35,186 nt of DNA, from positions 1 to 35,186 of the IMG/VR virus record IMGVR_UViG_3300033148_005591. One strand, 5' to 3'. Of the stretch, positions 5,003 through 23,769 are shown piece by piece (within the stretch, counting starts at the first letter, position 1; each line of letters begins with the position of its first letter). The position numbers and the translations under genes are program-made. The notes under the pieces were generated by a model, which was not told the origin of the DNA, made no database searches, and saw nothing but the letters and a program-made list of their open reading frames with translations. Source of the stretch: a virus.

Positions 5003-5275
5003 TCAGGCTCCCTTGACTCTCTTGATCCAGTTCCAAAATGCGGTCACCGCGAATATTATGGTTGCGCTCACTGCAACCCACACCACGCGGGCGCGAGTCC
5101 TTTCCGCGCGTTCCAGCCTGTCAACGCGAACCATGATACCGTCCTTGCCGTTGCCGACGTAAATGGCCCTCATAAGTTCGTCTTGTTTCTCCGCCAGTTG
5201 ATCCAGCTTTTCCGAGTCGGCTTCCCGGCCCTCGATGAGTCGGGCCAACTGGGTTCTGATCTCGCTGTCTGTCAT
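5003..5275 (-). CDS. XhlA/holin-like protein with C-terminal membrane anchor
   Basis: The 90-residue protein has a long charged helical N-region (EIRTQLARLIEGREADSEKL, then DQLAEKQDELMRAI), the motif NGKDGIMVRVDRLERAERTR, and one C-terminal transmembrane helix (VVWVAVSATIIFAVTAFW) ending in a short basic tail. This is the layout of hemolysin XhlA-like phage proteins, which accompany holins and endolysins. The ATG overlaps the stop of the giant virion gene as ATGA. The family association is by layout only; the function could be holin, antiholin or another membrane role. Confidence 0.65.
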   Translation of the reverse strand: MTDSEIRTQLARLIEGREADSEKLDQLAEKQDELMRAIYVGNGKDGIMVRVDRLERAERTRARVVWVAVSATIIFAVTAFWNWIKRVKGA

Positions 5276-8200: not shown

Positions 8201-10275
8201 AGTACCTTGTGGCCCTGGTCGACAAGCGCCTGCCGCGTGCGTTCACGTCTGGCGTTGGCGGCTTCCACCGTCTCTTGCGGAATCTCCCGTGTCTCTCCCG
8301 GCGCGGCCTCGGGTTCGACCACGCCTGTCCCTAACGCAAAATACGCTTCGCCGGTGTTGGCCGCGGCGCGTTCGGCGGCCTGTTGTGTCGCAAATGTGCG
8401 CATGCGACCGGCAGAATCCCGCAACACCTCCTGTCCACCTTCGGGGCTTTCCCGACTCACAAACCAGCCCTTCGTGCCCGTGGCGCCGGAACTGGCGGAC
8501 CACACAGTATGCGGGGTCTTCTGCTTCGGCGCGGCCTTTTGGGCAGGCTGCAGGTCGGGATAGTCGGCAAGGACTTCGGGGGGGACGGGCTTCCCTTCCC
8601 GGATAGCCGACTCGACTGCCCCCTTATGCCACTCGTCACCCTTCGCGTAGGCTCCAAATGGGCCATCATCCGGATGCCCCTCAGGCGCAATCTCGCCTAC
8701 TTCTTCTTCCGCTTCTTGTGCACCTTGCCGCCGTACTTCTCGTCCCACTTCCGCGCCAGCTTCGGGTGCTTCGCGTGCAGGCGCCTCCGCTGCTTCTCGC
8801 TTCGGTACGGCATACAGTTCTCCTTCCGGTTGAACGGCTGCTTCGGCCTGCACCGGCCCGAACCCTTCCCCTTCCGCCGGCGTGACGGTCGTTTGCTCGG
8901 CGGGGGTCAGGTCGGCGGAATAGCGGCGGTGAATGAGGCTATTGATTTCCGCCATCATCCCCTTGGCGCGGTCGATCTGGGAACCCTCTGCGCCGTGGGC
9001 CGCCCGTTCCGCCTCTTGGATCGCGTCGGAAGCCTGTGAGGCCGATATGTCGTAGGCTTCAGACACCGATTCGACCAATTCTGCGCGGATCTCCGGCTTC
9101 GCCGCGCTGTTCGCCAAAGACGGCGCCCCAAGCATTCCCACGCACAGGAGGGTCTGAGCAGTCGTGTCTATGAGCAGATTTCTTGCGCCTTCACTTGTCA
9201 GCGGGGCCGCCAGGCCGTGCGCCTCTTGGTTCATGTGGTCGGCAAACTCCGTCAGGATTTCCTCGGGCACCTCCTGGATGGCCCTCGCGGCAATCTGCCC
9301 AGCTATCTGCTTCGCCCCGCCCTGTAGCCCGCCCGTCAGCATTGATTCCATACCGCCCAAACCCATCGCATGGAAAACGGCCGCAACCCCGCCCTCAATT
9401 GCTGCGGCCTTCAGAACGTAATCGGCGGCGCTTGCTCCGTAGAGCCCTCCATCCTTCGCCTCGGTAGCCGCCTGATTGGCGCGAACGGCTGCAAAGCCGT
9501 AGATCGCGGCGGGCGCCGCGAAGGGGCCGGTAAGGCTCGCAGGCGCAGCCATTGTGACCGATCGCGTGGCGCCGCGCAGCATGCCGGCGGCACGGGACAT
9601 GCCGCCGATCTGCGCTTCGTCTATATTGTGAGCCACCCGTTCGCGGAGCTTGGTCTGTCGAGTCAGTTGGCCCGCCCTGATGGGCTGTCCCGTGATGCGG
9701 AGCATAAGCGACTTCACGTCGAGCGCGCCCTGTATCACGCCCCCGGCGATGGCTCGCAAAACGGGATTGCGAACTCTACCCTCTTGCTCCGACAGGGCCA
9801 ACTGCGCGCGCTGGAGCGCGCTAAGGTCATGGGCCTCCATGACGGCTTCGCGGTCGAACTCGGCCTCGGGCCACTCAGCTTTCGGCTTGGCGACGGAATA
9901 GGTGGACACTCTCGGGCGCGGTGCTTTGCCCGGCCCGCCTTCGCCGGCCTCCAGGCTGGGGGCTGTCGGGAACGCGCCCTTGGGTATCTCCATCGGCTTG
10001 CCCGGCTTGGTGGTTTCGCCTACCGTGAACCCTTCGGGCTCCGGCCACGAGAGGGGGGGCGTCTTCCGGGCCTTGAGGGTTTCCTGTAGGGCGTAGCCTG
10101 TGTATGGCTCCCAACCTGGGCTATGGGTCGGCGCGGGCTTCACGGGCGCCTTTCTCGCCGGCGCGCGTTTTGCCGGGGCGGCATCCAGCACAAAGCCGCG
10201 AGGCGGCTCCGGCGTAGGCGCGTCCAGCACAAACCCTTTCGGCGGGTCAATCACAAATCCGGGCGGGGGCGTCAC
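5272..10275 (-). CDS. Giant internal virion / polyvalent ejection protein
   Basis: From the GTG at 10275 the protein has 1667 residues. That start overlaps the upstream stop as GTGA and has GGGAG eight bases ahead, so I prefer it to a further-upstream GTG at 10305 that overlaps by 34 bases. The N-terminus repeats PPGFV(I/L)D three times, typical of phage large polyvalent proteins carried in the capsid and ejected with the DNA. Ala/Gly-rich hydrophobic segments (about 230-340) could insert in membranes. Residues about 735-775 (ARRDAKAAGIDVSDIKGEGS) loosely resemble a peripheral-subunit-binding fold. A Trp-rich stretch (IPFWSWMRLNGEFW) lies near 1400 and the C-terminus is basic. No lysozyme or peptidase active site was recognised. 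It follows a coiled-coil virion protein and precedes the holin-like gene. Confidence 0.75.
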   Translation of the reverse strand: MTPPPGFVIDPPKGFVLDAPTPEPPRGFVLDAAPAKRAPARKAPVKPAPTHSPGWEPYTGYALQETLKARKTPPLSWPEPEGFTVGETTKPGKPMEIPKGAFPTAPSLEAGEGGPGKAPRPRVSTYSVAKPKAEWPEAEFDREAVMEAHDLSALQRAQLALSEQEGRVRNPVLRAIAGGVIQGALDVKSLMLRITGQPIRAGQLTRQTKLRERVAHNIDEAQIGGMSRAAGMLRGATRSVTMAAPASLTGPFAAPAAIYGFAAVRANQAATEAKDGGLYGASAADYVLKAAAIEGGVAAVFHAMGLGGMESMLTGGLQGGAKQIAGQIAARAIQEVPEEILTEFADHMNQEAHGLAAPLTSEGARNLLIDTTAQTLLCVGMLGAPSLANSAAKPEIRAELVESVSEAYDISASQASDAIQEAERAAHGAEGSQIDRAKGMMAEINSLIHRRYSADLTPAEQTTVTPAEGEGFGPVQAEAAVQPEGELYAVPKREAAEAPAREAPEAGAEVGREVRRQGAQEAEEEVGEIAPEGHPDDGPFGAYAKGDEWHKGAVESAIREGKPVPPEVLADYPDLQPAQKAAPKQKTPHTVWSASSGATGTKGWFVSRESPEGGQEVLRDSAGRMRTFATQQAAERAAANTGEAYFALGTGVVEPEAAPGETREIPQETVEAANARRERTRQALVDQGHKVLKRQPRSEAEEAKYHRMGYRPSLLTVEGEMQPNALGVWSKAPKTPSPAKKDTIFAARRDAKAAGIDVSDIKGEGSVKRIRARIAERIQAGFTPDPTEPVAQDARKAGGFAAIGPKQSQGAARPWLTLERTRSPDAGIEAFFGRTNKLTSVTSKLRRAAAAVTHGLVERFRFLPHLPKSPEAAFARDAIRTMPEQTRGAAATAAGDLAAILEGDGTRQALDVAGLDLLRRKVFIEDLISEAHKAMDAGENSAVRLPEGVTLTSLQTDKARIDALIDKVPSVADAYEKRQELWQSVSKDLAERGVISEEAAENATYVRHFVLDYIERKNIGGSGLGKVLKKPFRAYSRRRKGTRRDISTDYLEVEMKALGDIYRDNAIEDLAQSIARRYDQTTEMKALAKESQTGATVQQLAAQNGLVEWQYQRGNIFYQAKTITEAEILRLAEDTLNDPALADEIGVPLSAMRDGLVLGGKRKTFLIPDWLADQLNDLPVRHRPGVAVSFTEPFIKFWKRWILRVNPIRYNSRNAVGDGERVNAAGRAHAFARVPEAVKMLAQKTSPEAHPEAYEMGEAYGVFGSSLWHEMGTARTRPEFARFEKVTSQSGWNKAVRAMKWPGRKAGGAAQVIQDLTQAREDVLRVAVYLDALDQVDAYLNDGTPIRHWNGSQADIHALAKEDKFRAAAKISRETLGDYGAFTPWENDHLRNGLIPFWSWMRLNGEFWPRVLKSAAGEDAAKAKAGALRAGARGAYGLGKWCARIGTGYALITAWNNGDEERQKKERALPAWLRARPHIIVGDGVVHTPSALSDWLEWFGLQEIGVDLRRWESGQITTGELATLIMVTEARAPVNRVWQSLNPYLKAPMTLTGAKTFPDVFDSYTFAKSFSSRAVAETVLNILGPDTKRFLDAAQGRRTLREVLSYYFSGSAYTPASAAELANEIKRRLSKATLKRQSRTTGRGPGEAKAGRERDVDELRNRLKGLR

Positions 10276-11414
10276 TGAAGCGGCTCCCACTTGCCGTTGC
10301 GCCACACAAGCCGTTCGCCCGTGTCAGGATTGGTGGCGGTGACTTCGGCGCCGTCGGGCTCAGTATCGCCCCCCTCCCCGACAAGGCCGGCGATCTGTTC
10401 GGTAAGTTTCTCGCGAGAGGCGAAGATTGCGCCAAGCCGCGCCTTCTCTTGGGCCATCTCCAGCCTGATCCGGTGTAGGTCGTCGCGCTTCACCTCATCC
10501 TTGGCCGCCTGCGTCCGGTATTCGTCTTGCAGTGCGTGGTATCGGTCCCAATGCAACTGTGCCCGCTTCTCCAGCCGATCCGCCCCCTTATTCAACTGGG
10601 CCAGTTGCGTGTCGCGGCGATCTTTGACTGTGCCCGCCTCGGCCTTCACCGCGGCGACCTTCAGGGCGTTCTCCAGCTTCTCGCGGGCAAGCACCATCTC
10701 CCGGTCGAACTTCTCCCGCGCGAAATCCAACTCCTTCCTGTCGTGTTCCAGTCGGGCCGTCTGCTTGGCGGTGTCCGCCGCGATTGCCCGCTTGTCGGCC
10801 TCGGCCTTGTGCCCGGCCTCCAGCGTCATCTTGCGAAGCGCGAACGCCTGGGTCCGCGCAGCCTCGGCCTGCTCCGGCTTGCCCGCCCTGGCGTAGACCC
10901 CGGCCAGGCTGTTGTAGTAGTCGGCCCCGCCCGTATCCTCAATCGCCTCGATCTGCTCTTGCAGGCGGATATTGTCCAGTTGCGCCCTCGCGGCCATCGC
11001 GCCCTCGGCCGTCGGCGCCACAGCCCCCCAGTTGAAGCCCATCGCCCCCTTCTGCCGCGACCGCCACTGCATGAACGAGTCTATGGATTCGCCTGCCGCC
11101 CGCTGGTCCAGCCGGTAGCGGTTGTAGGCGTACCGCTGCTCCTGCGTGGCGCGCGTGCCGCCGAAGGCGGACACCGGCTGGCCGGCCGCCAATCGCATCT
11201 GATTGAGCGGGCGCCAGTGTTCGGGGATCTGCGGCGCGGGCATGGTGGGCATCGCCCTCGCTTGTCCGGCCTGTGCTTGGACCATGTTCGGCTGTGGCTG
11301 GGGCCGCGAACGCTGCTCAGTCTGTGGCTGGGGCCGCGAACGCTGCTCAGTCTGCTGCTGAAGCCGCTGCATCTCGGCCACTACGTCACGCCTTCGGCCC
11401 CGTTTCAGTGCCAT
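10272..11414 (-). CDS. Coiled-coil internal virion protein
   Basis: The 380-residue protein starts behind a strong AGGAGG. A Gln/Arg-rich N-terminus carries a ten-residue repeat (QTEQRSRPQP twice). Residues about 65-130 look folded (YAYNRYRLDQRAAGESIDSF). From about 150 to 330 is long charged helix and coiled coil (KELDFAREKFDREMVLAREK). The C-terminus ends TNPDTGERLVWRNGKWEPLQ. The pattern and the overlap with the giant ejection protein suggest a second internal core or ejection protein, as in podoviruses where two or three such genes are adjacent. No sequence family was recognised, so the role is inferred from position. Confidence 0.65.
   Translation of the reverse strand: MALKRGRRRDVVAEMQRLQQQTEQRSRPQPQTEQRSRPQPQPNMVQAQAGQARAMPTMPAPQIPEHWRPLNQMRLAAGQPVSAFGGTRATQEQRYAYNRYRLDQRAAGESIDSFMQWRSRQKGAMGFNWGAVAPTAEGAMAARAQLDNIRLQEQIEAIEDTGGADYYNSLAGVYARAGKPEQAEAARTQAFALRKMTLEAGHKAEADKRAIAADTAKQTARLEHDRKELDFAREKFDREMVLAREKLENALKVAAVKAEAGTVKDRRDTQLAQLNKGADRLEKRAQLHWDRYHALQDEYRTQAAKDEVKRDDLHRIRLEMAQEKARLGAIFASREKLTEQIAGLVGEGGDTEPDGAEVTATNPDTGERLVWRNGKWEPLQ
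11293..11352. repeat. 30-bp tandem duplication in the coiled-coil gene
   Basis: Two identical 30-base copies (11293-11322 and 11323-11352) encode the repeated Gln/Arg/Pro-rich decapeptide near the N-terminus of the coiled-coil virion protein. The unit keeps the reading frame. Confidence 0.9.
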
Positions 11415-11491: not shown

Positions 11492-11554
11492 GGCACGCTC
11501 TCCTCCGTAGATCGTGCCTAGGCCCCCGGGCTATCGCATAGTCAACCGGGGGCC
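11492..11554. terminator. Two adjacent hairpins between late gene blocks
   Basis: Hairpin one pairs GGCACG (11492-11497) with CGTGCC (11513-11518) around a 15-base loop. Hairpin two pairs GGCCCCCGG (11521-11529) with CCGGGGGCC (11546-11554) around 16 bases. They fill the 177-base gap between the beta-solenoid gene (stop at 11592) and the coiled-coil gene (start at 11414). Neither strand shows a clean U-tract, so intrinsic termination is uncertain; an RNA processing or transcript-balancing site is also possible. The rest of the gap shows only the AGGAGG for the gene at 11414. Confidence 0.5.
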
Positions 11555-11591
11555 GCTATATATCTTGCCGACAGGCGACATGGATTCTCCC

Positions 11592-12491
11592 CTACGCTAC
11601 TGCGCCCGTCGTGATCTTGCGGTACTGGCCCCAGTGCACGCTTGCCGTCTTCAGTGACGTGCCGTTGAGGTCGATTGTGGAGCCGACCGGGTTGGCGTTA
11701 TTCGGATCGAAGAACGTGCCCTTGCCGTAGATGTCGATGGCCGTAATCGCCGCATCCAACCCCGGCGAGGCGGATAGATCAACGATACCGTTAGTGTAGA
11801 TAAACAGATCCGTGATGGTTTCGTTGCCGTTGTAGTTTAACCGCCCGGCGTAGACATATGCGGTTCCAATGTTGCCGTTTATGCCTTGGGTGGGGTTCAT
11901 CGTCACCGTGCCCCCGCGCACCGTCAACTCCTCCGCGTCGCACTCCAAGACGGTCACGCCCGCCCCGACCACGATCTTCGGCCCGTCGATACCTGCATGG
12001 TTACTGCAGTCTTTACCCACATATACGGTCGCACCGGCAAGGTTGTAGATGTAATCCACGTCGTGACCCGACGTGCCCCACCCGACGTACACCGTCGCAG
12101 ATGCGTTGGTGATATGGATCTCGGAGAATCCGTCCGCCCCCAGCCCTGGCAGGCGATAGGTGCCCGTACCCCTTATGGTGGCGTAGGCGTTGGCGTTACC
12201 GTCAACCTTGATCACATACGTTCCGCTACCCGCGAGCGTCCATATTGACGAGGCGGCGGCGCACCCGAGTTGCAGCGGATTCCCCGTTGTGCCGATGTTG
12301 ATGGCACATCCCTCCTCAATGGTGAACGCGCTAATAGTAACGGACGACTGATCCAGCCCTGTGTAAATGTTGCGCGCGGCGTTCCCTGGGATGATTACCG
12401 TATCATCGGCCACCGGAACCGCGCCGCCACTCCAGTTATCGGCAACATTCCACGAATCGCTCACGGTACCCAACCATCTACGAATAGCCAT
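11592..12491 (-). CDS. Beta-solenoid tail-spike/fibre-like protein, copy B
   Basis: The 299-residue protein opens with WLGTVSDSWNVADNWSGGAV, then PVADDTVIIP, a cap seen at the start of many beta-helix adhesins, followed by repeating Gly/Thr/Val/Asn-rich strands (TIEEGCAINIGTTGNPLQLG, NASATVYVGWGT, GGTVTMNP, GIVDLSA) typical of parallel beta-solenoids. It is clearly a paralogue of the neighbouring gene at 12497-13402: both share NWx(n)DDx-IIP, F-IE-GC--NIGT, ITNA-ATVYV-W and -GTFxDP. Such proteins usually form receptor-binding spikes or appendages. No glycanase residues could be identified. It begins five bases after the stop of copy A. Confidence 0.65.
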   Translation of the reverse strand: MAIRRWLGTVSDSWNVADNWSGGAVPVADDTVIIPGNAARNIYTGLDQSSVTISAFTIEEGCAINIGTTGNPLQLGCAAASSIWTLAGSGTYVIKVDGNANAYATIRGTGTYRLPGLGADGFSEIHITNASATVYVGWGTSGHDVDYIYNLAGATVYVGKDCSNHAGIDGPKIVVGAGVTVLECDAEELTVRGGTVTMNPTQGINGNIGTAYVYAGRLNYNGNETITDLFIYTNGIVDLSASPGLDAAITAIDIYGKGTFFDPNNANPVGSTIDLNGTSLKTASVHWGQYRKITTGAVA

Positions 12492-12496
12492 CTATC

Positions 12497-13402
12497 CTAG
12501 ATATTCCCTACCGTAATCCGCACATTCTCCCCCACGTCGATGGGGCTATCGTCCGGGTTCGGATCGCCGTAGACGTTGATAACCGTTCCGGCCGATGCGC
12601 GGCTCTCGGGGTCATTGAACGCACCCGAGCCGTGCACGTTGACCGTCGATACCGTCAGCGCCGACGTGGCCTTCGTCAGATCCACGGCGCCGCCGCTGTA
12701 GATGTGAGCGGTATCGAGTGTGCCGCCGACGAGATACAACGTCCCATCGTACATCGTCGCCGCGGTGATCGCCCCGGCATAGTGGGTGTGCGTCGCGCCG
12801 GTGTTCGTCACGGCCGCTAAGCCGCACTTGCTCACGCACGCTCCGCCGGTGAGCACAAGCGTAATGGCCGCGGGGTCTCCGGTCGCCACTGACGTACCCA
12901 GGTACAACGTCCCCGCCGACACAATCTTTGTGTCGATAACGGCCGTCTCGCTGTCCCGCCACGCTACGTAGACCGTGGCGGCCGCGTTGGTGATGTTCAG
13001 ATCGTCCGCCAGGCGTTCGCCGGAGTAGGATGCGAGGTGATAGGCGCCTGCACCCTGGATCGTGATCTCATCAACCCCCGCGGTGTTCGCGGCGACCTGG
13101 ATGTGGTATTCGCCGTCGCCGCCCCACGTCCAGTCGGCGGCGTCTTTCGCCCCCAGCCGCAGCGGCTCTTGCGGGGTTCCGATGTTCAGCGAGCAGCCGT
13201 CCTCGATGATGAACTTGGCGATGAATACGTCGTTGTGGTCGTCGCCGACGATGTCCTGAGAGACATTCGCATCGTTCGGGATAATGATGTTGTCGTCCGT
13301 CGCCGGTGCGGCCTCGGACACGGCCCCCGTCGATTCGACAAGCCAGTTGGTTGCTGTCCCGAATACTCCGTCAGTCGCTCCGGTCCAAATCAAAGTCGCC
13401 AT
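12497..13402 (-). CDS. Beta-solenoid tail-spike/fibre-like protein, copy A
   Basis: The 301-residue protein starts MATLIWTGATDGVFGTATNW and contains ATDDNIIIPNDA, FIIEDGCSLNIGTPQEPLRL, LNITNAAATVYVAWRDSE and many short beta-strand turns such as GGTLDTAHIYSGGAVDLTKA. Composition and periodicity indicate a parallel beta-solenoid. It is paralogous to 11592-12491 in order and spacing of motifs. The start has a G-rich ribosome site (GGGGGGA five bases ahead of ATG), like the capsid gene, suggesting strong late expression as a virion component. It overlaps the upstream small Cys-rich gene by 32 bases. A receptor-binding role is inferred. Confidence 0.65.
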   Translation of the reverse strand: MATLIWTGATDGVFGTATNWLVESTGAVSEAAPATDDNIIIPNDANVSQDIVGDDHNDVFIAKFIIEDGCSLNIGTPQEPLRLGAKDAADWTWGGDGEYHIQVAANTAGVDEITIQGAGAYHLASYSGERLADDLNITNAAATVYVAWRDSETAVIDTKIVSAGTLYLGTSVATGDPAAITLVLTGGACVSKCGLAAVTNTGATHTHYAGAITAATMYDGTLYLVGGTLDTAHIYSGGAVDLTKATSALTVSTVNVHGSGAFNDPESRASAGTVINVYGDPNPDDSPIDVGENVRITVGNI

Positions 13403-13619
13403 CTAGTCCCCCCTGTGGGAATAGCCCCTCCGGGCAATCCGTAAGAATGTGTATAGGTTCGTATGATCCGCAGCAGCCGGCCTTGGCTACCGCCTGACAG
13501 TGCGCCAGGCGCGGGCAGGCCGCGCATATCCCCACGCGCGGGTCCGGCGGCGGATGAAGGATCTTGCCCCCATGGCGCAGCTCCCTCAGTCTCGCGCCGT
13601 CGGCTATCTCATACGCCAC
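13371..13619 (-). CDS. Small Cys-rich protein
   Basis: This 82-residue protein, MAYEIADGARLRELRHGGKI and onward, has a central Cys cluster (CAACPRLAHCQAV, then AGCCGSY and TDCPEG) that could bind zinc or form disulfides, and an acidic tail (GGLDGDFDLDRSD). It overlaps both neighbours, by 11 bases with the upstream fibre-like gene and 32 with the solenoid gene, consistent with a real gene in a packed operon. The first helix and Cys spacing recall small zinc-binding phage proteins next to tail genes, but no family was recognised. Confidence 0.55.
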   Translation of the reverse strand: MAYEIADGARLRELRHGGKILHPPPDPRVGICAACPRLAHCQAVAKAGCCGSYEPIHILTDCPEGLFPQGGLDGDFDLDRSD

Positions 13620-14520
13620 GGCAGCAAGCCTCGCATGTGCCGTAGTTGTAGAGGTTGCGGACCAGGCTGTCGTCGAGCGTCACGATTGTTGGATCGGCGG
13701 CAAGCTCGGCAGGTGTGGCGCGAGTCACCGAGTAGCACACTTTGCCTTGCGGCTCCTGAATGGCCGTGACGCCCCCCTCCAGAACGGCGAACTGGGGATT
13801 GGTCACGTAAACGGGCTTCCCGCCAGGGCAACGACCCGCTCCACCTGGCGTAATCACGGCCGTACCACCGTAGGCCAGACGCCGCGTGACGATGATATGA
13901 TGGGAGTCGCGGTCCCAAACCACGCCGTCTGTGGTGCGGACGTTCGGAACCACAACGCCGTTGCGGTAGTCGTCACACGAATAGCTGGGCCAGCCGGGCC
14001 ATGCGAACCACCCAAGGAACAGATCGGGGGCCCCGGAGCCCGCCAAACCCCACAGGCTTTCCATATCCCCCAGACAGTTGAATACCGAGTACGATGAGGG
14101 CGTGGAACTCGTTCTCGTAGTCCCAACCGTCAAGATCCGGCTTGAGGTTGCATAGCCTGACAGTTCGGCCCATACTACAAACTCGTCCACGGAGTACGGC
14201 GAGTTCGGTGTAACCCCGTCGTTGCTCTCCCCGACGTGAAGGTAGCCGGCGCCGAGGGTGGCGGAATACCTGTGGCTCCACGGATCGTAATCCAGCAGGA
14301 ACGAGCCGTTGATGTCAAAGTCCAGCCCGGCTCTCGACCATGCGTAATGGTCGCATTCTCGGTACGGCGCGTATCCTATTGCCGTGAACTTCGGCCCGAA
14401 CTTCAGGAGGGAGGAGACCGAGACGCCCGACAGTGTCAGGGTCAGGGAGTCACAATCGCCACAAGGGCGAAGCTTCCACACGCTGCCGCCACAACACGCC
14501 ACCACTCGCCGGTAGGACAC
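13609..14520 (-). CDS. Cys-rich virion protein, probable fibre component
   Basis: This 303-residue protein of unknown family begins at GTG 14520 directly after the stop of the upstream gene. It is rich in Gly, Ser, Tyr and Trp with beta-strand character. Cys pairs mark both ends: CCGGSVWKLRPCGDC at the start and GTCEACCRGV at the end. A central stretch (WGLAGSGAPDLFLGWFAWPG) is hydrophobic and aromatic. Its place between an unknown virion protein and the solenoid spikes suggests a tail or fibre subunit. The terminal Cys clusters may be disulfide or metal staples. Confidence 0.55.
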   Translation of the reverse strand: MSYRRVVACCGGSVWKLRPCGDCDSLTLTLSGVSVSSLLKFGPKFTAIGYAPYRECDHYAWSRAGLDFDINGSFLLDYDPWSHRYSATLGAGYLHVGESNDGVTPNSPYSVDEFVVWAELSGYATSSRILTVGTTRTSSTPSSYSVFNCLGDMESLWGLAGSGAPDLFLGWFAWPGWPSYSCDDYRNGVVVPNVRTTDGVVWDRDSHHIIVTRRLAYGGTAVITPGGAGRCPGGKPVYVTNPQFAVLEGGVTAIQEPQGKVCYSVTRATPAELAADPTIVTLDDSLVRNLYNYGTCEACCRGV

Positions 14521-16834: not shown

Positions 16835-17089
16835 CTATCCCCCCCCCGTCTCGTAGTACGGCTTGCGGGCGATAACCCGCGCTACCCGACCATTCTTCCC
16901 GGTGTCAATCCACGACTCGACAATCTCGGCCGTGGCGTCCTCGGGCAGAGCGTCGCCGCGGTTGAGGCTCACGTCCGCGAGTGTGCCCGCGTTCCCGATG
17001 TTGTAGGTCCGGTGAAGCGTCTGCTCGCTCAAGGTGTCGCGTTCGCCGTCGAACTGCGAATCTCGCATGAGCGTGGGCGTAACCGCCAT
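16835..17089 (-). CDS. Small virion-region protein (84 aa)
   Basis: The product MAVTPTLMRDSQFDGERDTL continues with SEQTLHRTYNIGNAGTLADV and NGRVARVIARKPYYETGGG. It has no signal peptide or membrane segment and looks beta-rich. It overlaps the stop of the adaptor gene by one base. Connector or tail-completion function is possible from its place, but nothing in the sequence identifies it. Confidence 0.5.
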   Translation of the reverse strand: MAVTPTLMRDSQFDGERDTLSEQTLHRTYNIGNAGTLADVSLNRGDALPEDATAEIVESWIDTGKNGRVARVIARKPYYETGGG

Positions 17090-17841
17090 TAGCTCGGATC
17101 TCCCACGACGATCGTCCCGTCGCCTATCTCAATTACGTGCCGGTTGTGCGGCCAGGTCCCGGGCTGCGCGTCGGGGTGCCGGTTGACCGCCGACAGGTCC
17201 TCGTATCCGCCGGGGGCCGCCTCGGCCATGCGCCGCATCGCGTCCACGAAAGCGGAAGAATTGCGAAGCCCCACCGGGTCCGCTACGCCGTTGCGCAGCA
17301 GCCAGACCGCGCCGTCCACGTAGACCGACAGGTGGAACACGTCGGGTACGATCAGGTCCGAATCGCTGCTGGTCCCGTTGATGATGTTGCAGTGCCGCTT
17401 GATGTAGTCCACGTACACCGTGTAGGCGTCGTCCGGCGTGGGCCACAGATAGGCCGTCGGCGAGCCGCCGACGATGACGTAGCGGTTGGACTTGCCCGTC
17501 TGACTGTTCAACGCGGCCGAATCGCGGTAGTTCTTCCAGGACATGGGGACCAGCGGCCAGTCGTCCTCCATGTAGAGGCGTTCCACGGACCACAGCGAGG
17601 CCATGGCGTTTGTGTTTACGGTATGCAGAGCGTACGACGCGGTGTCGGCGACGGTGTCGAAGTTGCTCGTTCCATACAGCCACCACCACTTGCGCCCTTC
17701 CCACAGGCAGGCGGCCTGGCCGGCGGCGGTAATCGCCTCGTCGATCCGAGACAACTCGTCGGAATCGGAGACGTCCAGCTTCACCTTGTCGGCAATGATC
17801 GCCTCCAACTGGGCGATGGTGCGTCCGTACGTAGTCGCCAT
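17089..17841 (-). CDS. Head-tail adaptor / tail tubular-like protein
   Basis: The start ATG 17841 overlaps the stop of the upstream gene (TGATG). The 250-residue protein begins with a helical segment (TIAQLEAIIADKVKLDVSDS, then DELSRIDEAITAAGQAACLW), followed by WWWLYGTSNF-TVADTASYAL, the pattern 'Y.L... ...v..v...' and YVIVGGSPTAYLWPTPDDAY, TVYVDYIKRH, which I recognise from connector or adaptor proteins of short-tailed phages. These link the portal to the tail hub. The recognition is by pattern only. Confidence 0.6.
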   Translation of the reverse strand: MATTYGRTIAQLEAIIADKVKLDVSDSDELSRIDEAITAAGQAACLWEGRKWWWLYGTSNFDTVADTASYALHTVNTNAMASLWSVERLYMEDDWPLVPMSWKNYRDSAALNSQTGKSNRYVIVGGSPTAYLWPTPDDAYTVYVDYIKRHCNIINGTSSDSDLIVPDVFHLSVYVDGAVWLLRNGVADPVGLRNSSAFVDAMRRMAEAAPGGYEDLSAVNRHPDAQPGTWPHNRHVIEIGDGTIVVGDPS

Positions 17842-18221
17842 CAGACGATACCTACGTAATCGCCGAACTCGACGGTGACGTACTCGATGATGGCGCTGAG
17901 GATTCCGGTGGCGGCGCTCTTGTCGAAATTCAACGCCTCGGCGGCCGCCGTGTAAATCAGACCCGGCGGAATGTCGAAATTGCACGCGGTGGCCGGGAGG
18001 TAGATGGTGTGAATGGTTGTACTGCCGGACTTCACTGCGATGTTCTCGGCGCCGCCGCCGTCCCACGAGATATGGCACCGCGTCACGACATGCTGATAGC
18101 CCGTCGCACCGGCCGCGATGACTTCCGTAGCGTCGCCACCCGCGCCGCTGACCAAGACCACGTTTGCCACGCTGGACACGCGGGGCGAATCCTTCGCCGT
18201 ACTAACCGTAAGTGCAGCCAT
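17841..18221 (-). CDS. Probable head decoration or fibre protein (126 aa)
   Basis: The protein MAALTVSTAKDSPRVSSVAN is beta-rich, Ala/Gly/Val-rich and neutral to acidic, with WDGGGAENIAVKSGSTTIHT and a C-terminal strand IIEYVTVEFGDYVGIV. This composition is typical of small decoration or head-fibre proteins. It is overlapped by the adaptor gene and preceded by a 74-base gap with nothing recognisable, which separates it from the sugar cassette. The function is inferred. Confidence 0.5.
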   Translation of the reverse strand: MAALTVSTAKDSPRVSSVANVVLVSGAGGDATEVIAAGATGYQHVVTRCHISWDGGGAENIAVKSGSTTIHTIYLPATACNFDIPPGLIYTAAAEALNFDKSAATGILSAIIEYVTVEFGDYVGIV

Positions 18222-18295
18222 ACTCTTCTCCTAGAAAGCGCCGACCGGGGCGGAATCAGGAAGACACCGCACCCGGTCGGGCTTATCCCCCTCCG

Positions 18296-18415
18296 TTACG
18301 TCGCCGTGCGCAACGACCGAAACGGCCAGAACAACCACAGCCACAGGACCGTAACGGCCACGAAACGCAGCAGCCAATAGGCCGCGACGACCGATTTTCT
18401 CTCGTAGAATCTCAT
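18296..18415 (-). CDS. Tiny membrane protein of the sugar cassette
   Basis: The ATG at 18415 overlaps the acetyltransferase stop as ATGA and gives 39 residues: MRFYERKSVVAAYWLLRFVA, then VTVLWLWLFWPFRSLRTAT. It has one strongly aromatic transmembrane helix flanked by basic residues on both sides. Translational coupling to the acetyltransferase suggests it belongs to the cassette, perhaps to hold enzymes at the membrane. No family was recognised. Confidence 0.6.
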   Translation of the reverse strand: MRFYERKSVVAAYWLLRFVAVTVLWLWLFWPFRSLRTAT

Positions 18416-18960
18416 TTCACCCTCCTGGCCGGGTTGCCTACGTAGACGCCCGGTTCGGCGATGTCCCGAATGACCACCGAGCCGCACCCGATAACGGCCC
18501 ACGGCGCTATGCGAAGCCCCTCCCTGACGACCGCGTTAGCCCCCACCCATGCCCCTTCGCCCACGGTCACGGTTCCGCAGAGCACGGCGGCGGGCGCCAG
18601 GTGGGCCCAATCGCCAACAACACAGTCGTGCTCGACTATGGCCCCCGAGTTGACGATTGCCCCCCGACCCACCTTTGCGCCTACGTGCACCAGGGCAAAC
18701 GGCCCGACAAATACCCCGGACCCCAGTATCGCCGATCCGTCTACGAATGCCGTGGGATGCACCACTGTCACGAGCGTGCCCGAATCGCGCATCCGCCGAA
18801 CCCTGTTGTCCCCGATGGCGATAATCGCCTCGGCGTCCTTGTCCGGGAACGTGCATCCCGCATCATCGGTGAATCGCACCTCCCGCCCGGTCAGCCGTAC
18901 GGCGGCGGCGACGACGCGACCGTGCCCCCCCTTGCCGTGAATGGTCAGTTTAGGCGGCAT
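18412..18960 (-). CDS. PglD/NeuD-like sugar acyltransferase (left-handed beta-helix)
   Basis: The family transfers an acetyl group from acetyl-CoA to an amino or hydroxyl group of a nucleotide sugar. Residues 1-65 form a small Rossmann-like sugar-nucleotide domain (HGKGGHGRVVAAA, IIAIGDNRVRRM). Hexapeptide turns then follow from about 70 (AFVDGSAILGSGVFVGPFAL) to the end (VGNPARRVK). The catalytic-type His is present in VEHDC (H111), with a second His in DWAHLAP (H120), as in Campylobacter PglD. At 182 residues it is slightly shorter than typical members. It overlaps the radical SAM gene by 11 bases. Likely substrates are UDP-4-amino-sugars or sialic-acid-type sugars; which one is unknown. 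Confidence 0.88.
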   Translation of the reverse strand: MPPKLTIHGKGGHGRVVAAAVRLTGREVRFTDDAGCTFPDKDAEAIIAIGDNRVRRMRDSGTLVTVVHPTAFVDGSAILGSGVFVGPFALVHVGAKVGRGAIVNSGAIVEHDCVVGDWAHLAPAAVLCGTVTVGEGAWVGANAVVREGLRIAPWAVIGCGSVVIRDIAEPGVYVGNPARRVK

Positions 18961-19753
18961 CTCCAGGCCAGAATCGAGTCTTGTTGATTGCGGGGTAGAA
19001 GGCGGACAACCCGTTTTCGGGCCACGCCGGCGGGGTTCCGACGTATTCGCAGTCCCGGCACGGCGCGTAGGGCTCGCGATTCCCTATGAGCAGATCGCCC
19101 TTGATGCGATTGTATGCCGGGTCTTTCAAGAGCTCGGGGAGCGAGCAATCCCACGACAAACGCCGGTGTCCGTCGTTGCAGCACAAGGCGAACCGCCCTC
19201 GCGCCGTCAGGAAGATTTTCCGCGTGGGAGCCCCGCACACCTTGGCTCCGGCCGCTTTCGCCCGGTCGCTCTTGAAGCCGGTCCCGGCCCGGCTCAACCA
19301 TGCGGTCACAGGAAAGGCCGTAGCGTCTATCACGGCGAACCGTTCGGGTGGATAGCCGGATTCGCGGACAATACAGCCGATGCGGCGGGATGTGTCGTCG
19401 TTCTCGTACACATCCCACACAATCGAATCCACGGCCATGAGCGACCGCAGCATCGCCGGCGTGAGAGGGTCGCCGTTGGTGGACATCGCCAGCTTGGCGT
19501 TCGGAACCTTCGCCTTGGCCTCCGCGACAAACTCGACGAGCTTGGGATGCAGCGTCGGCTCGCCATGCCCGCAATAGACGATCCATTTATCGTAAGCCAC
19601 GGCCGCGAGGGCGTCCATAAGGGCCGCGTGCCGCTCGGCGGTGAGGTATGCTGGGGCGTCTCGATCTTCGGGCAACAGGGTCGTCCGGCAGAACCAACAC
19701 TTGCGAGTACAGGCGGTGGTGAGCTCGACCTCAACAATGCTATTGGCGATCAT
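18950..19753 (-). CDS. Radical SAM enzyme with SPASM-like C-terminus
   Basis: The iron-sulfur-binding CxxxCxxC motif is at 15-22 (CTRKCWFC), the glycine-rich SAM contact GHGEPTLHP at 62-70, and the STNG strand at 91-94. C-terminal cysteines at 173, 191-192, 203, 232 and 235 (KVCGAP, ALCCNDG, PCRDC) match a SPASM-type auxiliary cluster region. The enzyme would cleave S-adenosylmethionine to start radical chemistry. SPASM enzymes modify peptides or oxidise or rearrange sugars and aminoglycosides. Placement between a glycosyltransferase and an amino-sugar acyltransferase gene, with ATGA coupling, suggests sugar chemistry here, but a peptide substrate is not excluded. Confidence 0.88.
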   Translation of the reverse strand: MIANSIVEVELTTACTRKCWFCRTTLLPEDRDAPAYLTAERHAALMDALAAVAYDKWIVYCGHGEPTLHPKLVEFVAEAKAKVPNAKLAMSTNGDPLTPAMLRSLMAVDSIVWDVYENDDTSRRIGCIVRESGYPPERFAVIDATAFPVTAWLSRAGTGFKSDRAKAAGAKVCGAPTRKIFLTARGRFALCCNDGHRRLSWDCSLPELLKDPAYNRIKGDLLIGNREPYAPCRDCEYVGTPPAWPENGLSAFYPAINKTRFWPGDAA

Positions 19754-20424
19754 ATCGCCTCCATGTACTGCCGTACGTACTCATCGAACCGGCCGCCCCA
19801 CTTGGAGTCCGATATGTGGAAGATCACTTGTGATTCCGTGGGGCGGTTCAGGGGATAGCGGTCTGCGGGCAGGGGATGGTCATTGTAGAGCAGCCGCCAC
19901 ATGCCCGCCACAAGGCTCTGTTCGCACACGACGCCGGGCCATTGGCCCCGATCCAGCCCCCGCAGACGGCAACGGCGCAGGTATTCAATCGCAAGATCCT
20001 TGAGTCCCAGGAAATCGCTCTTCCGATACGAATACATCCCGCCGCACAATTTTGGGTGCGCGATCGGGAATGCCTTTCCAAGCGAGGCCCATACCTCAAG
20101 CCCTTCAACCGGGTCGTGTCCGGCCACGCCCTGATAGGCGGGAACCGGGAAATCCGTCGGGTCGGAGAATACCAGGCAATCGCTGTCCAGCGAGTAGATG
20201 TTCTCCGTCGGACTGACGTACGGAACATCGAACACGCGGCGCAGAACGGGCATCCGTCGCACCATCTCCCGGATGTCCGGCGGCAACGGGGCCTCCGTCT
20301 CACGGTCGGTGTCCAGAATCACCATCGGCTCCACGCCGGACCAATACTTGCGAATCCCGGCGACGCAGGCTTCCGTGAACGCGCGGTCGCGCTCGCATGT
20401 GACGATGATGGCGGTCGCTGTCAT
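19750..20424 (-). CDS. GT-A-type glycosyltransferase
   Basis: ATG 20424 overlaps the preceding stop (ATGA), giving 224 residues. The N-terminus TATAIIVTCERDRAFTEACV is a Rossmann-like nucleotide-sugar binding start, and YSLDSDCLVFSDP provides the DxD metal/UDP-sugar motif. A mid-region Gly/Tyr loop (CGGMYSYRKSDFLGLKDL) and IFHISDSKWGG near the end fit a retaining or inverting GT-A fold. It is not closely similar to the two tandem glycosyltransferases upstream. Acceptor and donor are unknown. Confidence 0.75.
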   Translation of the reverse strand: MTATAIIVTCERDRAFTEACVAGIRKYWSGVEPMVILDTDRETEAPLPPDIREMVRRMPVLRRVFDVPYVSPTENIYSLDSDCLVFSDPTDFPVPAYQGVAGHDPVEGLEVWASLGKAFPIAHPKLCGGMYSYRKSDFLGLKDLAIEYLRRCRLRGLDRGQWPGVVCEQSLVAGMWRLLYNDHPLPADRYPLNRPTESQVIFHISDSKWGGRFDEYVRQYMEAI

Positions 20425-21110
20425 TTGATCTCCTGTGCAGCGGCCCACCGCGCGGCGCTGTGACGGTCGATCAATACGGGGGGGCCGATGTGCTTGACCT
20501 CGGCGTCACAACAGACATAGGGCTGAATGCCGTGTTGGCGAAGCCGCTCGCACCAGTAGGCGTCCGGGCCGATACCACCGCGCTTACTCGGCGGCAGCAC
20601 CCCAAACCACGGTTCGGACACGCGGTCGAACAGCGAACGGTGAAAGAGCGCGGCGCACATGCCGACGCTGTCCACCGGATGTACGCCATCGGCCGGCACA
20701 TTCTCCCACTGGGCGCGGGTCTTGACATTGCCGAGCTTCCGCACCGACACGGCGCCCGGTCCGTACGGCGGGGTTCTCGTGTAGGCCAGGGCGGCGACGA
20801 ATGGGCGGTCCTCGGGGTCGGCGACGGCGCGCAGGCGCTCGTAAAGGTCGTCGGACGGCACAATGTCGTCCTCGATCCACAGAAACCAATCGGCCCTGCG
20901 ATTCTCCGCCCGCTCCCGCTCGAACATGGCCTGCACGTACCAATACACGCAGAACGGGTAGGTCAGGCGATCGTGGGGGTGTCTCAGCAACCACAGCCGG
21001 TCCTCGGCGAACCGCCTGGCCAGCCGAAACCCGAGCTTCTGAAGCGCGAACCACGCGGGGGTCTTGACCGCCTCATAGATGGCCGTGGCCCAGGCGAGAG
21101 TTTCAGTCAT
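20421..21110 (-). CDS. Glycosyltransferase-like protein, tandem copy 2
   Basis: The 229-residue protein contains YPFCVYW, NRRADWFLWIEDDIVPSDDL (EDD at 80-82, the DxD-type site), RPFVAALAYTR, VGMCAALFHRSLFDRVSEPW and GIQPYVCCDAEVKHIG. Each of these has an aligned counterpart in the upstream gene at 21103-22008, so the two are paralogues made by tandem duplication. The fold is GT-A-like with an acidic metal site and a late His. It lacks the N-terminal 50 or so residues of its paralogue. It overlaps the paralogue's end by eight bases. Confidence 0.75.
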   Translation of the reverse strand: MTETLAWATAIYEAVKTPAWFALQKLGFRLARRFAEDRLWLLRHPHDRLTYPFCVYWYVQAMFERERAENRRADWFLWIEDDIVPSDDLYERLRAVADPEDRPFVAALAYTRTPPYGPGAVSVRKLGNVKTRAQWENVPADGVHPVDSVGMCAALFHRSLFDRVSEPWFGVLPPSKRGGIGPDAYWCERLRQHGIQPYVCCDAEVKHIGPPVLIDRHSAARWAAAQEIK

Positions 21111-22008
21111 TGCGCCGTCCGTTGCGTGGCTTGGGGGGCGTAATCACGGTGGCCCCGGTCGCGGGGCTTACCGTGCTCTTCGCCTCCAGAACATCCGCGT
21201 GGTCCTGACGACGAGGCGACCGTTGTTGCCACTGTTCGGAGTATTCGCGGTTGATCCGCAACTTGCGGCCAAGATGAATGACCTTCGCATCGCAGCAGAC
21301 ATGGGGCTGAATGCCCGCGCGATTAAGCTGAACCGACCACCAGTAATCGGGGTTCATGCCCGTTGTGTTGAGCGTCGGCGCCGAAACCCCAAACCACGGC
21401 TCGGGAACCTTCTCGAACAGCGAACGGTGGAACAACGCCATACACAGTCCAACATGCGACACGGCGAATGTCCCGGTTTCGGGGGCCTTGACCCACTTCT
21501 TGGGCTTGCCCTCGATGAACTCCGTTACCGCCGGGCAGTGCGGCTCGAACCGGTCGTAAGGCGTCGCCGAGACAAACGGGCGGAGATACGGGTTGGCGGC
21601 TGCACGTAGGGCCTCGAAATCGTCCGGCGTGGCGATGACATCATCGTCCATCCACAGATACCAATCGAACCGGCGATTCTGTACCTTCTCCGTCTTGAAC
21701 GCACAGGCCAGAGGCCAATACACGGCGAACGGATAAGGCATCCGCTCAAAGGTGGGCAGAATCCACAGATTGCCCGGCGCGTATTTGTAACAGAGGTATC
21801 TGTTCAATCGCAGGAGCATGTCGGTCGATTCCTGCGGCTGCGTCTCATAGACCGCCCGGCCCATCGCCAGAACTTCCCCGCCGAATCGCGGGGTGTAATC
21901 CTGCCAATCGCTCCTGGCGGGGTAGCGGCGGGTCACGTCCTCCATGGTGATCGTGTACGTCCACGATTCGCCGTCGATCCGCTCGTCGATGTCGCGGATA
22001 TCGTCCAT
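21103..22008 (-). CDS. Glycosyltransferase-like protein, tandem copy 1
   Basis: The 301-residue first gene of the cassette has AGGGAG seven bases ahead of ATG 22008. Key motifs: YPFAVYW (92-98), NRRFDWYLWMDDDVIATPDD with DDD at 121-123, RPFVSATPYDRF, VGLCMALFHRSLFEKVPEPW and GIQPHVCCDAKVIHLG. These match copy 2 closely and indicate a GT-A enzyme with a metal-binding acidic triad. A C-terminal tail of about 50 residues rich in Arg, Pro and Thr is absent from copy 2. A hairpin at 22034-22056 separates it from the capsid genes. Confidence 0.75.
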   Translation of the reverse strand: MDDIRDIDERIDGESWTYTITMEDVTRRYPARSDWQDYTPRFGGEVLAMGRAVYETQPQESTDMLLRLNRYLCYKYAPGNLWILPTFERMPYPFAVYWPLACAFKTEKVQNRRFDWYLWMDDDVIATPDDFEALRAAANPYLRPFVSATPYDRFEPHCPAVTEFIEGKPKKWVKAPETGTFAVSHVGLCMALFHRSLFEKVPEPWFGVSAPTLNTTGMNPDYWWSVQLNRAGIQPHVCCDAKVIHLGRKLRINREYSEQWQQRSPRRQDHADVLEAKSTVSPATGATVITPPKPRNGRRND

Positions 22009-22033
22009 GTGTGTCTCCCTGGGAAAGAATGCC

Positions 22034-22056
22034 GGGGCCGCCCCCCCGACGGCCCC
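22034..22056 (-). terminator. Hairpin between the head genes and the sugar cassette
   Basis: GGGGCCG (22034-22040) pairs perfectly with CGGCCCC (22050-22056) around a nine-base loop. On the minus strand it follows the stop of the decoration gene and is followed by ATTCTTT, a weak U-tract. It could reduce read-through from the very active capsid genes into the cassette. Confidence 0.6.
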
Positions 22057-22068
22057 AGCGGTGATAGG

Positions 22069-22572
22069 TCACGGAATCATCACGATGTCGGCGAGGTTGC
22101 TTGAGGCGGCCTCCATCGCAATGGCGACAACGCGGTCGCTGTCGCTGGACGAGATGGAGAAGTAGGAATCGTTCTGGGCGGTGAGCCCGTCGCAGACACC
22201 TACTTCCGTGGCGCAACTACAGTCCGGCGTCACGGCCCCGTTCGGAACCTCGATCCATACATATTCGACGACCCCGCCGGTAACAGCGGCGGTGAAGACG
22301 CCCGCGAACGACGCGCCCAACTGCTCGGACACCTGGGCGTCGGAGTAGTCGCTGGTCACTTCGTTAGCGGTGGCGCCGATCATGTAATAGGCGGGCTCAC
22401 CCGCGCCGCTCGCTACGGCGCTGGCGTCCACGACACATTTCTTGTACTTGCGCCCATCCGTTGAAGTCACGATCTTCCCGGTCTCGCCCACGTCGGTCGT
22501 CTGACCCGTCACGTCGAGAGCGTCGAGAATCGGAGCATCAAGGGTGTGCATTGCAGAAACAGCGTAAGCCAT
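22069..22572 (-). CDS. Probable head decoration protein (167 aa)
   Basis: The gene follows the capsid gene after a 60-base gap and has the same G-rich ribosome site (GGGGGGATGACAA before ATG). The protein MAYAVSAMHTLDAPILDALD is Ala/Ser/Val-rich and acidic, with a beta-sandwich-like pattern (VVEYVWIEVPNGAVTPDCSC) and a Cys-rich patch (DCSCATEVGVC). Small acidic proteins next to the capsid gene are usually capsid stabilisers. No family was recognised beyond this. Confidence 0.6.
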   Translation of the reverse strand: MAYAVSAMHTLDAPILDALDVTGQTTDVGETGKIVTSTDGRKYKKCVVDASAVASGAGEPAYYMIGATANEVTSDYSDAQVSEQLGASFAGVFTAAVTGGVVEYVWIEVPNGAVTPDCSCATEVGVCDGLTAQNDSYFSISSSDSDRVVAIAMEAASSNLADIVMIP

Positions 22573-22632: not shown

Positions 22633-23769
22633 TCAGTCCGGGCAGCCCGGAATGTCATAGCAGGTCCAGTGCGGACGCCGCGCCGTCACCATCGGCGTGG
22701 AGCGGACGCTGACGGCCGCGACCATCGTTTCGTAGTCGTCATGCAGCCGCGGCGGCTCCCAGCCGGACCACTTGAAGTTGTGCTCCTTGCGAATAGCGAT
22801 GGCGAAGCTCGGAATGTGAACCCCGTAGAACGTCTCGGTCCCCGCGGTGGCCCCATAGGGCACGGTAACGGCCGGATCCCACACGACCGGCGCGCCGTTG
22901 AAGGCATGGGCCTGAACGCCCGCGGCGTCGTAACGCCTGGACACGCCGAAATCGCCCTTGCCGCCCTCAATCGCGTCGGCGTACATCATGCGGTCGTAAT
23001 ACTGATGGCCGCCCTGGGTCGTCAGGATCACGTAATCCTGCGGCCCGGTGGACTCGCCGTACGTCATCTGGGTATTGGACCGTTTCAGCATCTTCCGCCG
23101 CAGAAGCAGCGGCCGGTCCATGGCGCCCCCGCCGCCGACGGAACTGACCTGCGTATACCCGTTCTGCCAGTAGCTATTGGTGGCGGAGATGTTCCCGACA
23201 GTCCGCGTCTGCGTGACCGAGATGAGGTTCGGCAGGTCGCTGTAGAGCGCCGTCGGACCCATGGTGCCGTGGTCCGGGCCGGAACTGTTGCCGAGGATGG
23301 CGTAGTTGAAGTCCTGCACCAACTGAGACTGGATGACCAGCATCTTGTGGCGAAGGATGTCAATCGGGCCGCCCTTGTTGTCGTCTACGTCGATCTGAGG
23401 CGCATACGCGACGGCGTTCAACTGGTGCCATGCATACGCATACTCGTCCCCGCCCTCGATCAGTTCCGGGTTGCGCTTGGTCAACCGCCCGGAGTGATAG
23501 GTTGTGGCCGAGTTGTCGAAAATACTTCCGGTAATCTGGTACTTGCCGGAGTCCAGCCGGATCATTCGGCCGGTGGGCCTGGCGTTGTGGAACTGCTCAA
23601 CGTTCTTGAGCGCCTCCACGCCGTAGCCCTCGGCCGCGATGATTCGCGTCCATGGTGTTTTCGTCCAACACGCAAATCGGATCTGCGCCAAGTAGATATC
23701 GGCGCTGGTGAGTCGCTGATAGGTGTCCCGATACGCGCTCGGACTCCCCTCGTAAGTCCCTGTGGGCAT
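22633..23769 (-). CDS. Major capsid protein
   Basis: The 378-residue protein lies directly after the scaffold gene, in the usual order portal - scaffold - capsid. Features fitting an HK97-fold capsid protein: an N-terminal arm, a beta-rich extended-loop region (RLDSGKYQITGSIFDNSATT), helices with IDILRHKMLVIQSQLVQDFN, and a C-terminal strand FAIAIRKEHNFKWSGW. YVILTTQGGHQYYDRMMYAD is like the late axial-domain region of N4-type and related podovirus capsids. Its leader GGGGGGA before ATG 23769 suggests strong translation. Identification rests on position, size and these motifs. Confidence 0.8.
   Translation of the reverse strand: MPTGTYEGSPSAYRDTYQRLTSADIYLAQIRFACWTKTPWTRIIAAEGYGVEALKNVEQFHNARPTGRMIRLDSGKYQITGSIFDNSATTYHSGRLTKRNPELIEGGDEYAYAWHQLNAVAYAPQIDVDDNKGGPIDILRHKMLVIQSQLVQDFNYAILGNSSGPDHGTMGPTALYSDLPNLISVTQTRTVGNISATNSYWQNGYTQVSSVGGGGAMDRPLLLRRKMLKRSNTQMTYGESTGPQDYVILTTQGGHQYYDRMMYADAIEGGKGDFGVSRRYDAAGVQAHAFNGAPVVWDPAVTVPYGATAGTETFYGVHIPSFAIAIRKEHNFKWSGWEPPRLHDDYETMVAAVSVRSTPMVTARRPHWTCYDIPGCPD

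Follow-up and report, generated by a model that had tools for sequence, protein, structure and literature searches.

A strain-variable cassette of predicted sugar enzymes within the head operon of a phage, with a possible role in virion glycosylation

Why a phage should carry a run of predicted sugar enzymes among the genes for its head is the question raised by the window analysed here, the whole 35,186-nucleotide stretch of IMG/VR record IMGVR_UViG_3300033148_005591. A sequence-only reading had proposed that six genes at 18296-22008 constitute a pathway for an unusual acylated amino sugar that is attached to virion proteins or to the host surface. Re-examination upholds the location, gene order and motifs and corrects the type of the radical SAM enzyme and details of two glycosyltransferases. 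The interpretation is retained in part: a glycan cassette is well supported, the case for a single pathway is weakened, and it is gene position that ties the cassette to the virion. We put at about even chances that this late cassette, which varies between strains, builds a short glycan attached to virion head proteins.

The six overlapping genes lie on the minus strand between the genes for the major capsid protein (MCP) and a probable decoration protein on one side and that for an SU10-type adaptor on the other, the arrangement first described and now confirmed by the overlapping open reading frames and by family matches for the MCP and adaptor. The features, in order of transcription, are as follows.

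22633..23769, minus strand: MCP, upstream neighbour (phrog_9953 major head protein, E=1.1e-6)
22069..22572, minus strand: 167-aa protein directly after the MCP, probable head decoration protein (from position)
22031..22059, minus strand: strong GC hairpin between head genes and cassette (12-pair stem; -30.7 kcal/mol, z -2.65)
21103..22008, minus strand: GT1, 301 aa, GT-A-type glycosyltransferase, DDD (phrog_34859, E=0.003)
20421..21110, minus strand: GT2, 229 aa, shortened GT1 paralogue, EDD (phrog_34859, E=4.4e-6)
19750..20424, minus strand: GT3, 224 aa, putative GT-A glycosyltransferase, DSD (from motif and secondary-structure order)
18950..19753, minus strand: radical SAM/twitch enzyme (PF04055, E=4.7e-12; nearest solved relative BtrN)
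18412..18960, minus strand: NeuD/PglD-class hexapeptide acyltransferase (TIGR03570, 165.7 bits, cut-off 160.8)
18296..18415, minus strand: 39-aa single-pass membrane protein (ATGA overlap with the acyltransferase stop)
18233..18288, minus strand: strong GC hairpin after the cassette (-38.8 kcal/mol, z -2.99)
17841..18221, minus strand: 126-aa protein before the adaptor, downstream neighbour, possible head protein (from position; identical in the sister contig)
17089..17841, minus strand: SU10-type adaptor protein, downstream neighbour (PF24175, E=6.1e-14)

ATGA overlaps join GT1 to GT2, GT2 to GT3, GT3 to the radical SAM gene and the acyltransferase gene to that of the 39-aa protein, while the radical SAM and acyltransferase genes overlap by 11 nt. 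The tiny membrane protein of the sequence-only reading stands, as the 39-aa product of 18296-18415 and not the 68-aa frame of the mechanical list. Family searches returned no match for the 167-aa protein, so its decoration role is proposed from position, nor for the 126-aa protein. The hairpin at 22031..22059, a possible attenuator or terminator, has a counterpart in the sister contig L023 (z -3.57), and one also follows the MCP gene in loci L005 and L014. GC and GC3 of the cassette are close to the values of neighbouring genes, giving no compositional sign of recent import. Elsewhere the window carries a repressor-like gene.

The DDD, EDD and DSD motifs are present in GT1, GT2 and GT3, respectively; the claim of three GT-A glycosyltransferases holds for the GT1/GT2 family, with the qualification that GT2 is short and has Glu in place of Asp, and is carried by the motif in GT3. 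GT1 and GT2 are 44% identical paralogues within a phage GT-A family whose profile matches Mnn9 and A197. GT1 keeps the DDD motif (D121-D123), whereas in GT2 (E80-D81-D82) Glu replaces the first Asp of DxD and the N-terminal part present in GT1 is missing. Structure prediction used an alignment of window and phage-locus sequences, with one GenBank sequence left out. The resulting GT2 model (pLDDT 64) is predicted to adopt a GT-A fold, matching ColGalT1 in Foldseek (E 5.6e-7) and the GT-A chains LH3 and A197 with VIA Z of 13.0-13.7. GT2, the gene for which is missing from L023, may be inactive or may act as a partner to GT1. GT3, with an ATG start at 20424 and its DSD at D80-D82, gave a poor model (pLDDT 42) and no family, PDB or profile match in database searches; its profile found nothing significant among other phage glycosyltransferases, and its L023 orthologue had chance-level matches to the PDB. 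We therefore retain it as a putative GT-A glycosyltransferase. Because GT1 and GT3 have L023 orthologues (50% and 41% identical, respectively, both with dN < dS), their genes are more than chance open reading frames.

The acyltransferase bears out the proposed PglD/NeuD likeness, with its hexapeptide repeats and VEHDC, and scores above the TIGR03570 cut-off. Alignment to PglD (2npo and 2vhe; E=4e-28) places GxxGHG, IGxN and the EHD catalytic region in register, which assigns it at sequence level to the NeuD/PglD class of sugar N-acetyltransferases. It differs from these enzymes in a slightly shorter N-terminal domain, and no aminotransferase or dehydratase gene for 4-amino sugar synthesis adjoins it.

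For the radical SAM enzyme, the nearest solved structure is BtrN (4m7s and 4m7t), a 2-deoxy-scyllo-inosamine dehydrogenase acting on an aminocyclitol, matched at E=4.2e-10 (42.7 bits) by single sequence and 4e-39 by profile, the next-best structure standing at 3e-12. The CxxxCxxC motif was read correctly (C15, C19 and C22). The SPASM-type cysteines were not: the four C-terminal cysteines (C173, C191, C232 and C235) fit one auxiliary cluster of the BtrN/twitch type, as against the seven-cysteine SPASM set, and the SPASM family PF13186 scores 17.1 bits, below its 21.5 cut-off. All seven cysteines and R155 are conserved in 85-87 of 87 relatives; R155, kept in 86 of them, aligns with Arg152 of BtrN, which we take to be an active-site residue. 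By its CxxxCxxC, four-cysteine auxiliary cluster and Arg152 equivalent, the protein thus appears to be of BtrN type. The likeness extends over the full length, but the similarity is remote (42.7 bits), and no butirosin-type pathway genes occur within the window.

The sister contig shows that the cassette has been exchanged between near-identical phages. L023 is 99.6% identical to the window over 4.5 kb downstream, yet its cassette differs: GT1 and GT3 are diverged, three further glycosyltransferase-like genes are present, the acyltransferase is the same (98% identical) and there is no radical SAM gene. One of the extra genes is clearly of the GT2 family (PF00535, E=2e-30); the other two, with no PDB match, are assigned by motif. 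The 167-aa probable decoration protein has also diverged (32% identity), as expected, together with the different cassette, of surface chemistry under selection; however, the sequence bordering the exchange on the left has diverged too (82% at the MCP end), so these differences need not reflect specific co-variation of decoration protein with cassette. We think it unlikely that L023 is an assembly chimera, although this is possible at one junction, because the comparison passes several times between identical and exchanged blocks and single-base differences are scattered among them. Searches of IMG/VR and GenBank phages for close relatives of the MCP, GT1, GT3 and acyltransferase returned the sister contig or distant matches only. 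A glycan cassette is well supported by the NeuD/PglD acyltransferase, the GT-A folds, PF00535 in L023 and the BtrN-like radical SAM enzyme. The sugar enzymes of the sequence-only reading hence stand, while its single pathway to one acylated amino sugar is weakened, since the acyltransferase and radical SAM gene are separable, L023 keeping the first without the second.

Whether the glycan is destined for the virion turns on the surroundings of these genes. GT1/GT2 homologues lie inside head modules in all 15 loci found, between the MCP and SU10 adaptor, as here, in 5 and after the terminase and before the portal in the other 10; these loci derive from two related phage lineages and so represent few independent events. 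Members of the phrog_34859/phrog_1574 family occupy the same MCP-adaptor slot in L005, L009, L012, L014 and L022, as a single gene where the window has six, and GT1 and GT2 have diverged in their N-terminal half. This confinement counts for virion glycosylation, as does precedent: Corndog places a methyltransferase and three glycosyltransferase genes (gp35-gp38) between portal and protease (PMC4351075), and mycobacteriophage glycosyltransferases, Che8 gp110 among those described, glycosylate capsid and tail-tube proteins, the proposed or reported acceptors (PMC12363180). These clusters likewise hold several sugar-transfer genes in a head-gene operon but, as far as the cited accounts describe them, no radical SAM enzyme or NeuD/PglD acyltransferase. 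Tight coupling and the hairpins also count for it. Against virion glycosylation, position is not proof of the acceptor, GT2 is possibly inactive and GT3 putative.

The main rival is that the cassette alters a host surface glycan (O-antigen or capsule) in late infection or lysogeny, blocking superinfection or freeing progeny from debris, which we regard as a real but distinctly lesser possibility. Pelagimyophages carry variable cassettes of glycosyltransferases and radical SAM genes in host-recognition clusters, and the authors who describe them prefer to read the glycosyltransferases as host O-chain modifiers (PMC7029224), which counts against a virion acceptor; those phages are large and T4-like with the cassette beside tail fibres, whereas the present one lies inside the head operon. 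Cell-surface sugar loci hold relatives of the radical SAM enzyme, which in phage contigs accompany genes of KdsB-like, aminotransferase and glycosyltransferase-like type and in bacteria adjoin glycosyltransferases and sugar enzymes; NeuD-class enzymes of other phages adjoin sugar transferase or transaminase genes; and the repressor-like gene in the window would suit lysogeny. Yet the cassette lies within the virion operon, with head genes on one side and the adaptor gene on the other, all GT1/GT2 homologues found belong to head modules, and none of the cassette genes is of flippase, O-antigen polymerase or GtrA/GtrB type.

The sister cassette, lacking the radical SAM gene, would also suit a mixed island: a glycan cassette made up of the glycosyltransferases and the acyltransferase, plus a radical SAM enzyme as independent cargo, for example a modifier of peptides or proteins; enzymes of related architecture include peptide modifiers. 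We consider this improbable: among solved structures BtrN is by far the closest relative (E=4e-39 versus 3e-12), its Arg152 is kept, and no precursor peptide is present. The 39-aa protein was rejected as a dedicated substrate because 38 of its 39 residues are identical in L023, which has no radical SAM gene. Modification of phage DNA bases, which phage glycosyltransferases can perform (work cited in PMC12619734), is very improbable, as no gene for hydroxymethyl-pyrimidine synthesis or base modification was found in the window, the closest folds belong to glycosyltransferases of proteins and polysaccharides, and the genes sit in the virion operon.

For virion glycosylation, we infer all substrates, the virion as acceptor, late timing and joint action of the genes. 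A nucleotide-activated sugar, probably supplied partly by the host, would be acylated at its amino group by the NeuD-class enzyme; the BtrN-like enzyme would oxidise the sugar or its precursor at a hydroxyl-bearing carbon, or edit it otherwise through hydrogen abstraction; and sugars would be transferred by GT3 and by GT1, perhaps partnered by GT2, most simply to the decoration or capsid protein encoded just upstream. The border hairpins may hold the enzymes below structural-protein levels. The more specific proposal, that the BtrN-type enzyme oxidises or epimerises a sugar in the glycan of the phage's own virion, so that near-identical phages swap strain-specific shell chemistry by cassette, is a speculative and unlikely reading.

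Virion glycosylation is already known from other phages, capsid glycosylation from only a few mycobacteriophages in the papers cited (PMC4351075, PMC12363180), and what is unusual here is the radical SAM step. The combination of genes is less unusual than first claimed, given the pelagimyophage (PMC7029224) and mycobacteriophage (PMC4351075) precedents. Our literature search found no paper that brings a phage genome together with radical SAM, SPASM and glycosyltransferase. If true, a conserved glycosyltransferase slot between MCP and adaptor across lineages, together with an exchangeable cassette, would allow virion glycosylation to be predicted from the order of genes; a radical SAM sugar enzyme in that slot would bring in a chemistry that is uncommon and would tie the diversification of phages to their surface chemistry in a testable way.

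Between 22008 and 18296 the minus strand carries six consecutive open reading frames, joined by four ATGA overlaps and one 11-nt overlap, and the last, of 39 aa, starts at 18415 within the acyltransferase stop codon. Both this run between head genes and adaptor and each of the motifs named in the sequence-only reading were found again:

5′ neighbour: major capsid gene (MCP; phrog_9953)
22069..22572, minus strand: 167-aa gene, decoration-like protein, directly after the MCP gene
21103..22008, minus strand: GT1, candidate glycosyltransferase
20421..21110, minus strand: GT2, candidate glycosyltransferase
19750..20424, minus strand: GT3, candidate glycosyltransferase
18950..19753, minus strand: radical SAM enzyme
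18412..18960, minus strand: acyltransferase
18296..18415, minus strand: 39-aa membrane protein
3′ neighbour: 126-aa gene
3′ neighbour: SU10-type adaptor gene (PF24175)

The cassette is exchanged between near-identical genomes. A sister contig (IMG/VR 3300033153_012912, 14,895 bases; loci L008 and L023) matches the window at 99.6% identity over 18948-14485, with 20 of 4,464 positions differing. The boundary at 18948 lies twelve bases within the acyltransferase gene; upstream of this point stands a different cassette, retaining orthologues of GT1 (50% identity) and GT3 (41%) and lacking GT2 and the radical SAM gene; in their place are a PF00535 glycosyltransferase (E=2.3e-30) and two additional glycosyltransferase-like genes, recognized by motif alone. 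The acyltransferase (98%) and the 39-aa protein (38/39) are conserved; identity falls to 32% for the decoration-like protein, and at the DNA level it is 82% over the part of MCP that is visible and the stretch after it. With dS near saturation, dN is below dS for GT1 (0.49 versus 1.6), GT3 (0.64 versus 1.7) and the decoration gene (0.80 versus 1.3). Such a difference between near-identical contigs marks the region as an exchangeable glycan cassette, and retention of the acyltransferase without the radical SAM gene indicates that neither depends on the other.

Further near-identical blocks follow, broken up by exchanged ones at 13551-14485, 11528-12565 and 8929-9967. Within the latter are a Cys-rich protein, another that is rich in repeats and may be fibre-like, and a piece of a 1,677-aa protein. 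In L023 an unrelated, shorter ORF stands in for the Cys-rich 303-aa gene (13609-14520, minus strand), the exchange beginning about 35 bases into that gene. At 11592-13402 (minus strand) lie two neighbouring, mutually related proteins, each roughly 300 aa long, with abundant repeated motifs and possibly fibre-like; they are 93% and 42% identical across the contigs, indicating a further exchange site. The 1,677-aa protein (5272-10305, minus strand), which may lie inside the virion or be ejected from it, is exchanged in its early part and 92% identical at its N terminus. Elsewhere, the window encodes a calpain-family cysteine protease domain (3266-4126, minus strand; PF00648, E=2.7e-12), unusual for a phage genome, and a 448-aa repressor-like protein with two helix-turn-helix regions (32822-34168, minus strand).

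GT1/GT2 homologues occur in 15 other loci (14 contigs from IMG/VR plus one record from GenBank), and head genes surround them in every case. Five loci (L005, L009, L012, L014 and L022) have the gene between MCP and SU10 adaptor; the other ten have it between terminase and portal, or immediately 3′ of terminase at a contig end. These loci belong to two related lineages, with capsid proteins that differ from that of the window, and thus represent few independent events. A strong hairpin lies upstream of the cassette (z -2.65 in the window, -3.57 in L023), and L005 and L014 have comparable hairpins 3′ of MCP (z about -2.9); such a hairpin could hold enzyme expression below the capsid protein level.

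Three GT-A glycosyltransferases had been proposed, of which two are supported by family or fold. GT1 and GT2 are paralogues (43-44% identity) of phage family phrog_34859, annotated glycosyltransferase, whose profile, run against the PDB, matches yeast Mnn9 (E=2e-5) and the STIV virus GT-A protein A197 (E=2e-4). The GT2 model (pLDDT 64, better over the C-terminal 170 residues) matches the collagen galactosyltransferase ColGalT1 among GT-A chains (Foldseek E 5.6e-7), as well as LH3 and A197 (VIA Z 13.0-13.7). The matched LH3 region, residues 308-520, is the non-catalytic accessory domain of that protein, so the match establishes the fold and not activity. GT2 begins at the equivalent of GT1 residue 45 and carries E80-D81-D82 at the position of its relatives' DxD; it may lack activity or may work together with GT1. 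GT3 (model pLDDT 42) has a DSD motif and a secondary-structure order plausible for GT-A, and gave no match in family, PDB or profile-comparison searches.

The radical SAM assignment holds (PF04055, E=4.7e-12), but the proposed SPASM enzyme proves to be a BtrN/twitch type without the full SPASM domain. BtrN, which oxidizes 2-deoxy-scyllo-inosamine and has a single auxiliary cluster ligated by four Cys (PMC9012708), is the first PDB match of the single sequence (E=4.2e-10, residues 5-236), followed by one at 1.3e-3 over the N-terminal half alone; a seven-relative profile gives BtrN at 4e-39 and the next best at 3e-12. Four Cys matching the BtrN auxiliary ligands, and R155 aligned to BtrN R152, are conserved in 85-87 of 87 relatives, which places the enzyme in this type. 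On phage contigs the relatives adjoin KdsB-like, aminotransferase and glycosyltransferase-like genes, as read from the sequences; bacterial relatives, chiefly Lachnospiraceae owing to how the search pattern fell, adjoin glycosyltransferases, amine oxidoreductases and DUF6044 membrane proteins. Neighbours and BtrN similarity favour sugar chemistry, though they do not prove it. One phage contig (L002) holds three relatives inside 5.5 kb, near KdsB-like and other sugar genes, and the BtrN-like family is widespread in Lachnospiraceae (L026-L105), frequently beside DUF6044 membrane proteins and amine oxidoreductases. The acyltransferase is PglD/NeuD-like, as proposed, scoring over the curated TIGR03570 cut-off and aligning with PglD over its full length, including GxxGHG, IGxN and EHD; NeuD/PglD-type genes exist in other phages.

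From the observed genes, their folds or families, position and exchange, we infer substrates, acceptor and joint action, and the best reading is a virion head glycosylation cassette. A glycan would be made in late infection and joined to proteins of the head surface, the exchangeable glycosyltransferases and radical SAM enzyme would set strain-specific sugars, and the NeuD-class enzyme would acylate an amino sugar of host or phage origin. The strongest alternative is that the cassette alters the host surface, a role suggested for pelagimyophages (PMC7029224); glycosylation of DNA by the cassette and peptide modification by its radical SAM enzyme are less likely.

For virion head glycosylation there is a parallel: PMC4351075 describes a methyltransferase gene and three glycosyltransferase genes located between portal and protease in mycobacteriophage Corndog, with capsid modification proposed, and PMC12363180, citing Freeman et al. 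2023, reports glycosylated proteins for Che8, Corndog and Myrna. The window likewise has glycosyltransferase genes amid head genes and is a variant of this mycobacteriophage-type arrangement. New here are a BtrN-type radical SAM enzyme and a NeuD-class acyltransferase within a head operon, and cassette exchange observed between near-identical genomes.
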